Shown here: positions 58,144 through 61,623 of the stretch, piece by piece
Layout of the letters: every line of letters begins with the position of its first letter
Position numbering within the stretch: position 1 is the stretch's first letter
NCBI RefSeq assembly: GCF_949774925.1
Contig: NZ_OX458932.1
Coordinates: forward strand, 1,426,001-1,490,000
Direction: 5' to 3'
Origin: Candidatus Methylacidiphilum fumarolicum
GTDB taxonomy: Bacteria; Verrucomicrobiota; Verrucomicrobiia; Methylacidiphilales; Methylacidiphilaceae
DNA length: 64,000 bases
The notes under the pieces: model-generated
Databases searched by the model: none
What the model was told of the DNA's origin: nothing
What the model saw: the letters and a program-made list of their open reading frames with translations, nothing else
Program-made: the position numbers and the translations under genes

Positions 58144-58248
58144 GGGGATCGATTCGATCAGAAAAGACCCTAAAAAGACATCTTTTTTTTCTTTGATAAC
58201 AAAGCGATCGATGCAACTTTTTTGTTGCACATTTGAAGAAACAGTTAG

Positions 58249-59189
58249 CCCATGTTTGGTGAAAATGGGATGATTTTGGGGGTGCTCCAGAGGAGAGGAA
58301 GCGATTTTTGCAAAAAACATAGTGCTACACTATGAATAACTTTTCTTAAGTTATTGATCGATTAAACTTGCATGTGTTGGCGTTTCGAAATAATGTCTCT
58401 TCATGTTTTTGCGGATTGTGCCGATTCGGCGACCAAGCGGGAAGGTGGTCCACTATGTTCAGCTGGTGGAGAGCTACTACGATCGAGGGAAGATTAAGCA
58501 GCGGACGATTGCCAATCTTGAGCGGTGGGAGCTTTTGGCTCCGCATGTGGACCGGCTCGTGGAGCTTTTAAAAGGGGAGCAGCGGAAGATAACTGAGAGG
58601 AATAAGATAGTATCAGCGGTGGTTTGGGAATTCTTCCTGCCTTGAGAATTGGCTGCTTTGAGCCTTGGAAACCCAAAAAAAGAACCTCTAAAACCCCCAC
58701 ATAGTGACACATTGAAAAATAGTCTATTGATAATCAATAACTTACGAAATTTTCACCAAACATGGGCTATAAGGAGCTTAGCCAAGTGGAATGGGTCTTT
58801 CGGAAGCTAAAGGATGTCCTAGAGACGCGTCCGATCTATCACCATGATCCGAGAGCCGTCCCAGGCCCATGTCTTTGTTGTTGCCTTGGCCTTCTTGCTC
58901 GACCGACTCTTGGAGAAAAAGCTAAAGCTAGCCAAGCTCCCCTTTTCCACCGAAGAGGCCTTGACTCACCTCCTACCGTCCACGTCGTCGAGGCAGATGT
59001 TGGAGGCACCAAACACCGCGGGGTCACGGCAGGAAACCGACAGGCGCGTCAGATCCTTTCCGCCCTGAAAATCAGCTCCTTAGAGCCTTGGAAATCCAAA
59101 AAAAGAACCTCTAAAACTCCCACATAGTGACACATTGAAAAAAGGACCATTGATAATCAATAACTTACGAAATTTTCACCAAACATGGG
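58249..59189 (+). mobile_element. Rearranged IS1634-type remnant with three terminal repeats
   Basis: Relative of the element at 26819-28741, lying in the opposite orientation. Part 1 (58249-58766) has both terminal repeats and joins the first 80 transposase codons (from 58403) to a short 3' tail, a miniature internally deleted derivative. Directly after its right end, part 2 (58767-59189) carries the last 120 transposase codons (YKELSQVEWVFRKLKD on) with two frameshifts and a third terminal repeat. The outer flanks are TTAG on the left and CTAA on the right, so no direct repeat remains. Confidence 0.8.
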
Positions 59190-59193
59190 CTAA

Positions 59194-59972
59194 ACTAAAG
59201 CAGAAGTAAGATCTCCTTCTATTCGAGGAAAACTCAGAGGGTGGTTTTGGGTTCTTAGTGGAATTAAAACAGAAGAAAGAGAAGTTTTTGGAGGAATCAC
59301 AAAGGAGGAGCCTTTGAGCAGTTCTTTTCTTCTTCAACCTATTCTTCCTCAATCAATTACGATAGAGAAGGATAAAAATGACTGACATAAGTATACTCAG
59401 TATATTTGGTATTTTATCGAACTTCCAATCGACGGAATGCAGCTATTCCTCCTGGAACAAAGCTCGAATCGAAATTTTATGGAGAAAGAATCTTCCGAAG
59501 GATTTGTATAACAAATTTCAGAAGGCAATCGAAGCTTTTTTCTTTTTGGTCTAATTGGCTTTCGATCAACGCGTTGCGCCAGTGCCTTTCCTCCACAATG
59601 TTTGTCACAAAGCAAAAAGCAACCCCAAAATCTCAAAGGGTGTCGAAAGATCTTGAAGACATATGATGGTTTTGGGGATTTTGTCATAAATCATTTATAA
59701 CGTGCAAATGTCTTGTAACGGCTCAAAAAACCTTAAAAAGTAAATTTAGAAAAGAATATCTTGCAAAAAAGAATAGTTCTCATCTAGGTTCAGCTGATCC
59801 TAGACAAGCAAGCGTTATTTGCTTTAGACCTATCTTAATCCAGAATCAGTATCATCTTTTACTTTTCGAAGTACCACATGATAAGATTCTAAATGAAAAA
59901 ATAAACAAGGAATATCCAAAATTTATATTAAAAAATTATATCGACGAGAAAAATCGCATCCTTTGTCAATGA
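59194..59972 (+). pseudogene. cmr1: cmr1 (type III-B CRISPR RAMP protein), decayed
   Basis: Cmr1 is a RAMP subunit of the type III-B (Cmr) RNA-targeting complex. Directly after the IS remnant the plus strand reads KAEVRSPSIRGKLRGWFWVL, the Cmr1 signature (family form ELRPPSIRGxLRWWFRAL), then EEREVFGG. In shifted frames follow NAAIPPGTKLESKFYGERIF, LYNKFQKAIEAFF, LFGLIGFRSTRCASAF, and after a further shift LGSADPRQASVICFRPILIQ and NQYHLLLFEVPHD up to a TGA near 59970. At least three frame breaks and loss of the N-terminus make it non-functional. The next frame starts within its stop (ATGA), as in an operon. Confidence 0.75.
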
Positions 59973-60545
59973 GTATTCCTTCAGTGGCTAAACTCAATAG
60001 CAATCCATCCTCGTTCAGTAAGAAAGCCTTCTCACCTCTTTCTTTTTATCAAAGAATTTTGAGAACTATCTAGAATATTCGAATTCCTCCAAAGGAAACG
60101 AAGTATGCACTGCTGATAAATAAAGATCCTTATGCACCTATGCAAAGAAAGGTTTATTAAAAGAAATTTCTATTCAGAGATCTGCCTATTATCTTTTGAT
60201 TCAGAAGATGAAGCTTTATGTAGGATCACTATTAAGACTATATTTGAGCATTCTACAAGAATATAGCAAAGTGAGAATACCAAGGATTCACAGATTGTAG
60301 CAAAGATAAAAGTTGGAATGATGCAGAACAACTGCTATAATGTTGACAATTCCGACTTGTCTTTTGGAGAATACAAGTAATTGAATGGAATAGAGAAATA
60401 GAAGATGAAATTTGGAAATTTCATCCGAACAAGCCATGCTTGTGTTCATTTGAAACGTGTGATTTGAGAATAAATGCCTTAAAAAAAGACATGCAAGTAT
60501 GTCTAAAAAGAAGAGATTAATCTTTTTCATTATAAAGGTATTTGT

Positions 60546-60967
60546 ATGAAAATAATTTCTTTTTCCTTATCGTTGTGCATTCTTTTTTATCTTTAATCTT
60601 AAATCCTCTCAAAGCTCATTTTTTAAAAGGAACAACTAATAATACATCCAGTTTATTCTCTCCCTCATCTGGACCAACTTTCACTAATGGCTTAACAACT
60701 GGAAATTCTTATTTCTTTAATTCCCCTCTTTTTCAACGGAATCTTCCACATAGATCAATCCCAGAAATAGTTCTGGATACTTTAAAGAAAATAATGATAG
60801 TCATTATTATAGGCAACGATTCATTACTCCTCGATTTAATCGGCCTATCACCTATTTAAATCTTATTCCTGGCACGATAGAGAGGACTCCTTCAACTTAT
60901 CCTCAAGTTCAGATGATGATGATGGATTTTTGGAAAATGATGATAAAGAAGAATGAAATTTACTAAC
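60546..60967 (+). pseudogene. Frameshifted exported protein
   Basis: ATG 60546 starts a signal peptide (MKIISFSLSLCILFYL) that runs into a stop; the next frame continues SLILNPLKAHFLKG, GPTFTNGLTTGNSYFFNSPL and RSIPEIVLDTLKK, then a second shift gives RQRFITPRFNRPITYLNLIP and TIERTPSTYPQV before TAA. The continuity across shifts suggests one former exported protein. I do not recognise the family. Confidence 0.4.
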
Positions 60968-61125
60968 TTCCCTTACTGCAGCTTTAAGAATTATTCTCTC
61001 TTTTCTGTAATACGCATAAAAGAACCGTTGGTAATCTTCTATAGATAATTTCACTAACGTCATCTATTGCCTTTTAGGAAATCAAGGTGTTGTATCAAGC
61101 CCTTAAACTCAATTTAGAGACGAAG

Positions 61126-61302
61126 CTAAAAGGCACTTGAGATGACTTGGTTATTTTCCTTCGTCAGCCAAACAAATAAATAATCAGGACTAGAAACGAC
61201 TTCAAAAGACAAATCGAAGCATCTTTTGAAAGTGTCTAGATGCAAAGAACATTGACGAGGAAGGCAAGGATGTAGAGCGCTTTCAGGATCAATGTGGCTC
61301 AT
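61126..61302 (-). CDS. Short conserved-looking frame or gene fragment
   Basis: A 58-codon minus-strand frame from ATG 61302 that reads like a soluble protein end: MSHIDPESALHPCLPRQCSL, DTFKRCFDLSFEVVSSPDYL, FVWLTKENNQVISSAF. The frame stays open for several codons before the ATG (LEKGIHVFIDL), so it is more likely the tail of a longer lost gene. No family recognised and no ribosome site. Confidence 0.3.
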   Translation of the reverse strand: MSHIDPESALHPCLPRQCSLHLDTFKRCFDLSFEVVSSPDYLFVWLTKENNQVISSAF

Positions 61303-61623
61303 AAGATCAATAAATACATGAATACCCTTTTCTAATCTCTATTATAACCCAGCCTAAAAAATTATGAAAATGATTCGTTACTAAGCATTAATAGCTTACA
61401 CAAATTCAAGTTTTAGAACAAAAGTGCAGATGAAAGAAACAGTCCTGCAGATTTCCATTCGAGGATTATATGCTAGTAATTCGAAACAATTATTCTTTTT
61501 TTGATCTCATATCCAAGATTCATGTTTTTCCTGAAAAACGAGACAAGTATGAATATCGATACTCTTCGGCAGAATAAAAACCATGGACTTTATAAGGCAT
61601 GTTTATGGGTTTTTTAATCATTC

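Follow-up and report, generated by a model that had tools for sequence, protein, structure and literature searches.

Positions 59194-59975 of the window (the whole stretch analysed, 64,000 nucleotides of forward strand) hold the ruin of a cmr1 gene, and this dead gene very probably marks the left border of what was once a CRISPR locus. The host is a methane-eating bacterium of hot springs, and the cmr1 product is a backbone RAMP subunit of the type III-B (Cmr) CRISPR effector. The window genome (G000) is probably that of M. fumariolicum SolV, and G004, from a sister species of the same genus, probably that of 'Ca. M. kamchatkense' Kam1; a published comparison covers these two strains (PMC6688271). 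The ancestor of both sister species would have carried a lineage-B cmr6-cmr1 pair beside a complete III-B operon and a CRISPR array. Selection on the pair would have ceased at about the time the species parted, and each lineage's copy would have decayed on its own. In the window lineage, IS1634-family copies and a deletion would then have replaced cmr6 and the start of cmr1, and a separate deletion would have taken the neighbouring operon and array, about 17.8 kb, leaving two worn repeats. Immunity of the window genome, if any, would come from the other III-B locus, at 435-454 kb. The case is one of ordinary gene decay, unusually clear, with nothing new in kind.

Identification of the cmr1 ruin

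The gene and its lesions are as follows.

59194-59975, forward strand: cmr1 ruin (type III-B RAMP, Verrucomicrobial 'lineage B' Cmr1), identified by frame-aware alignment, tblastn, TIGR01894 and the broken orthologue in G004
59381-59383, forward strand: premature TGA, TGG in the G004 copy
59415-59670, forward strand: frameshift lesions near 59417-59423, about 59458, 59541 and 59666, none of them common to the G004 copy

The initial annotation placed a ruined cmr1 at 59194-59972, visible only across three frames, and both points hold. Reading 59.1-60.1 kb showed the quoted Cmr1 blocks across three forward frames between 59194 and 59975, and the alignment consists of five segments over these frames, beginning at 59194/59197 and ending with the natural stop at 59975, a TGA common to the G004 copy. 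About 20 N-terminal residues are absent and the rest is present. The blocks SPSIRGKLRGWFW, LFGLIGF and the tail LGSADPRQA...YHLLLFEVPHD had been read correctly. Of the block AIPPGTKLESKFYGERIF only AIPPG is in frame; one base is missing at about 59457, the true continuation after AIPPG is ARIEILWRKNLPKDLYNKFQKAIEAF, and the rest of the block is an out-of-frame reading of a former ARIEILWRKNLPKD.

The search against Cmr1 profiles that had been proposed gave a match, but one below the curated cut-off. With TIGR01894 (NCBIfam Cmr1, cut-off 28.65 bits) the whole-genome search found three places; those at 452 kb and 440 kb are above the cut-off, and 59197-59268 is the third, with E 0.046 and 14.5 bits. 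This first block of the ruin gave E 0.0073 by hmmscan and 14.5-16.5 bits in all. Such scores are expected because the gene is broken by lesions and only fragments are scored, and because even the intact relative L016 reaches only 24.4 bits (L019, 35.7). Scanned against Pfam, the pieces showed no match to RAMP; the single weak match there, Staphostatin_B (E 0.074), is noise.

Since the single-frame profile scores are weak, proteins of intact relatives were compared back to the window. The E values obtained with tblastn were 9e-22 (L019) and 8e-16 (L016). A custom-written frame-aware alignment, with the intact Cmr1 proteins L016, L019 and L012 as queries, scored 263-275. With L016 the ruin scored 263; the maximum was 45 for 60 other window stretches and 40 for 40 shuffles, so that the joined frames match Cmr1 well above background. 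Together, the tblastn and frame-aware results make the identification as a broken cmr1 certain.

In the phylogenetic tree the ruin pairs with the G004 ruin (support 100/100). Both fall inside a Cmr1 lineage of Methylacidimicrobium, G002 and other Verrucomicrobiota (support 96/95); the Cmr1 proteins of the two resident operons stand outside it. The closest intact relatives in both tree and alignment are the lineage-B proteins of M. cyclopophantes (L065), M. tartarophylax (L066) and G002 (L016). Their genes share the cmr6-cmr1 order with the locus of the ruin where the order can be seen, but have intact frames. With Cmr1 in general (TIGR01894 / PF03787 RAMP) the ruin shares the N-terminal AE.R..SIRG.LRWWFR region, the mid-protein FGSIGYRATRCAGAF, the C-terminal PRQxSAVYFRP...LLLFEAPH and a position after cmr6. 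It differs in being dead, with the N-terminus lost, one internal stop, at least four frameshifts and a score below the cut-off.

The ruin has presumably no function now. The open frame of a functional III-B subunit is interrupted by the TGA at 59381 and the frameshifts, and its start region has been replaced by insertion sequence. There is no adjacent cas10/cmr2-cmr6 set, the only cas10/cmr2 of the genome being at 445-447 kb.

The orthologue in G004 and the time of decay

Comparison with related genomes, also proposed by the initial annotation, placed the same gene at the same site in G004 (1279687-1280481, 84% identical, same flanks), beside an intact III-B operon. The G004 copy is broken too: a TGA lies at 1279731, and there are several frameshifts. 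A founding lesion common to both copies was sought by frame-aware alignment and none was found. Directly upstream, at about 1278600-1279580, is a cmr6 ruin, the C-terminal half of which still matches TIGR01898 (E 7e-15).

Between the window and G004 the substitutions per site in the ruin are 0.169, 0.110 and 0.104 for codon positions 1, 2 and 3. Four intact, constrained neighbours differ mainly at position 3, with values from about 0.03/0.03/0.10 to 0.04/0.01/0.15; the fifth neighbour, a umuD-like gene, has a less clear pattern (0.086/0.061/0.102). The lack of a third-position excess in the ruin indicates that cmr1 has been free of constraint since roughly the time of the species split. Death before the split is not proved, because no lesion is common to both copies, and selection may have persisted until shortly after the split in each lineage. 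One RAMP gene would have died in parallel in both species.

The IS1634-family mosaic

Upstream of the ruin lie parts of two insertion elements.

58246-58769, unstranded: internal-deletion derivative of about 525 bp, IS1634 family, with both terminal inverted repeats (TAGCCCATGTTTGGTGAAAAT), 88% identical to G000:842770-843295 over its whole length
58767-59193, unstranded: right-hand 427 bp of a full-length IS1634-family element (C-terminus of the transposase and terminal repeat), abutting the ruin

The second part is 95% identical to G000:484497-484922 and 98% identical to G000:907345-907771. A full-length copy at another place in the genome encodes a transposase that matches NF033559 with E 3.6e-100, and this match and the identical 21-bp ends place the elements in the IS1634 family, confirming the IS1634-type remnant that had been noted against the 5' end of the gene. 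Derivatives like the first part, about 525-530 bp long and with both ends, are found at G000:842770-843295 and 817880-818408, and possibly form a non-autonomous (MITE-like) family.

No target-site duplication was seen flanking the mosaic as a whole (58246-59193), and the window lacks at its site about 1.7 kb that G004 has. The simplest reading is that two insertions occurred and that the sequence between them was then deleted.

It had been suggested that the insertion probably started or accompanied the loss of the system. The remnant directly abuts the cmr1 fragment and stands in place of cmr6 and the start of cmr1, as would be expected if an IS1634 insertion into cmr1 had killed the system in the window lineage, the decay in G004 being an unrelated coincidence. 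Such a course of events is highly improbable. The genomic copy at 907 kb shares 98-99% identity with parts of the mosaic, so that the mosaic is young compared with the ruin, itself about 16% different from its orthologue. G004 has no such element, yet its cmr1 and cmr6 are ruined, with cmr1 lesions different from those in the window, and the insertion sequence is therefore not the general starter of decay. The absence of a third-position excess likewise points to drift over about the whole time since the split. The part of the suggestion that stands is that the insertion may have sped decay in the window lineage, since together with the deletion it replaced cmr6 and the 5' end of cmr1.

The probable deletion scar

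A second and larger difference from G004 lies 1.1 kb downstream of the ruin.

61112-61117, unstranded: deletion junction, where about 17.8 kb of G004 (1281687-1299493) is absent, located by homology to G004
61107-61143, forward strand: decayed CRISPR repeat at the scar, 26/31 to the G004-type repeat from about 61113, syntenic with the degenerate terminal repeat at G004:1299484
61183-61219, forward strand: second decayed CRISPR repeat, 22/37, alone not above chance, supported by spacing and by synteny with G004:1299560

Homology to G004 runs to window position 61112 and resumes at 61117, corresponding to the G004 points 1281686 and 1299494. The sequence between these points holds an intact III-B operon with cas10/cmr2 (994 aa), cmr3, cmr4, cmr5, cmr6 and cmr1 (356 aa), together with an NE0113/Csm6-type CARF gene, pieces of a CARF-adenosine deaminase, cas1 and an 18-unit CRISPR array with the repeat GTCAGATTTAGAGATGAAGCCGAAAGGCAATTGAGAC. 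This locus of Kam1 occupies the site of the window between the same flanks and beside the same cmr1 ruin; the complete operon and array are kept in Kam1 but absent from the window. The CARF-adenosine deaminase of the G004 island (L038:8033-10334, G004:1292933-1295234) appears broken over several frames, and the gene is intact in G002 and in the window genome.

The junction in the window reads ...AAACTCAA|TTTAGAGACGAAGCTAAAAGGCACTTGAGAT, and 26 of the 31 bases after the breakpoint match the G004 repeat. Over its full length the repeat at 61107 has 27 of 37 matches, the best in the 64 kb on both strands, where the next best has 22 and the best of 20 shuffles 24. The repeats at 61107 and 61183 are 76 bp apart, one repeat-spacer unit, and the pitch of the G004 array is 74-78 bp. 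The putative array remnant at 61107-61219 comprises two decayed units, the first clearly above chance and the second not so when taken alone. The first repeat is closer to the G004 repeat (27 matches) than to the window genome's own repeat (23), a difference that lies in the first 14 bases (9 against 5).

CRISPR loci are often carried by mobile islands, and a 17.8-kb III-B island might have been inserted into G004, the window being the ancestral empty state. The resident operons of the two species are moreover in different places (PMC6688271). Against a gain in G004 stand the worn G004-type repeat at the exact junction in the window and the second relic one unit further on, both syntenic with the terminal repeats of G004, and these make the insertion quite improbable. 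The relic repeats, one strong and one weak, speak for loss of about 17.8 kb by the window lineage rather than insertion into G004, and the direction is read from these two. None of the outgroups compared shows the locus in synteny. G002 and G003 lack DNA synteny here, and G001 (93%), a closer relative of the window genome than G004, was rejected as an arbiter since its contig has been rearranged here and matches only from window position 61325, beyond the relic repeats.

The CRISPR regions of SolV and Kam1 were placed differently in the published comparison, and the scar is not mentioned in its treatment of these regions (PMC6688271). The scar suggests that the different positions reflect more than a relocation. 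Probably the window genome, like G004, formerly carried a locus here, which was then lost, and retained a different operon at another site. The site gives a clear illustration of CRISPR turnover, and decayed repeats of this kind can help to tell gain from loss.

Two further decayed sequences lie between the ruin and the scar. A fragment at 60142-60470, also found in G004, resembles at 68% DNA identity the 3' end of an aldehyde dehydrogenase gene (G000:2374666-2374952); it was considered as a candidate cas gene and dismissed after a check. Positions 60542-60959 are a decayed orthologue of a short, secreted-looking repeat protein, frameshifted in the window and 201 codons long in G004 (L020:2776-3378).

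The resident III-B locus and lineage-B pairs in other genomes

The view that the system itself had been lost has to be qualified for the genome, where a III-B operon with Cas10 remains at 435-449 kb; what was probably lost here is the larger, separate piece of about 17.8 kb at 61112/61117. The whole resident locus, 435-454 kb, contains one Cas10/Cmr2 (445-447 kb), further cmr genes, csx3, a CARF-HEPN gene, cas1 and a 30-unit CRISPR array with the repeat GTCGGAATAATGGATGAAGCCGAAAGGCAATTGAGAC. Type III-B immunity is therefore not lost as such, although the operon's own cmr1 is interrupted (L021:5094-5591, G000:C1:440093-440590), with its start in another frame and its C-terminal part outside the 166-codon frame. 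The only full-length Cmr1 reading frame (438-440 aa) is at 452 kb, beside a CARF-adenosine deaminase. The resident operon was also considered as the G004 operon moved to a new place. Identity along the operon is mostly 65-80%, compared with about 88-93% in the flanks of the site, and this makes a simple recent move unlikely on sequence divergence.

Between the shared left flank and the cmr6 ruin, G004 has just a few hundred bases of unassigned sequence. The pair may thus have stood here without a cas10-cmr3-cmr4-cmr5 set of its own, as a detachable cassette that served the neighbouring operon in trans and died as redundant, which is possible if doubtful. G002 (L040:3559-11444 and L053:4431-15827) offers a parallel, being a split type III-B system: an intact lineage-B cmr6-cmr1 pair, with a helicase-nuclease and csx3, lies about 100 kb from a cas10-cmr3-cmr4-cmr6-like operon in which no cmr1 was found. 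In G006 and G007, however, lineage-B cmr1 sits in a normal, contiguous cmr2-to-cmr1 III-B operon, with cmr6 before cmr1, judging by the order of the reading frames, and an ancestral full operon that lost cmr2-5 would account for these facts as well. That lineage-B cmr6-cmr1 is in general a detachable cassette, serving a cas10 operon in trans and decaying or moving independently of the core operon, is unlikely; if true, the window and G004 would show its parallel death beside an operon that owns its cmr1. The helicase-nuclease that adjoins the pair in G002 is ProA/Mokosh-like and 1496 aa long.
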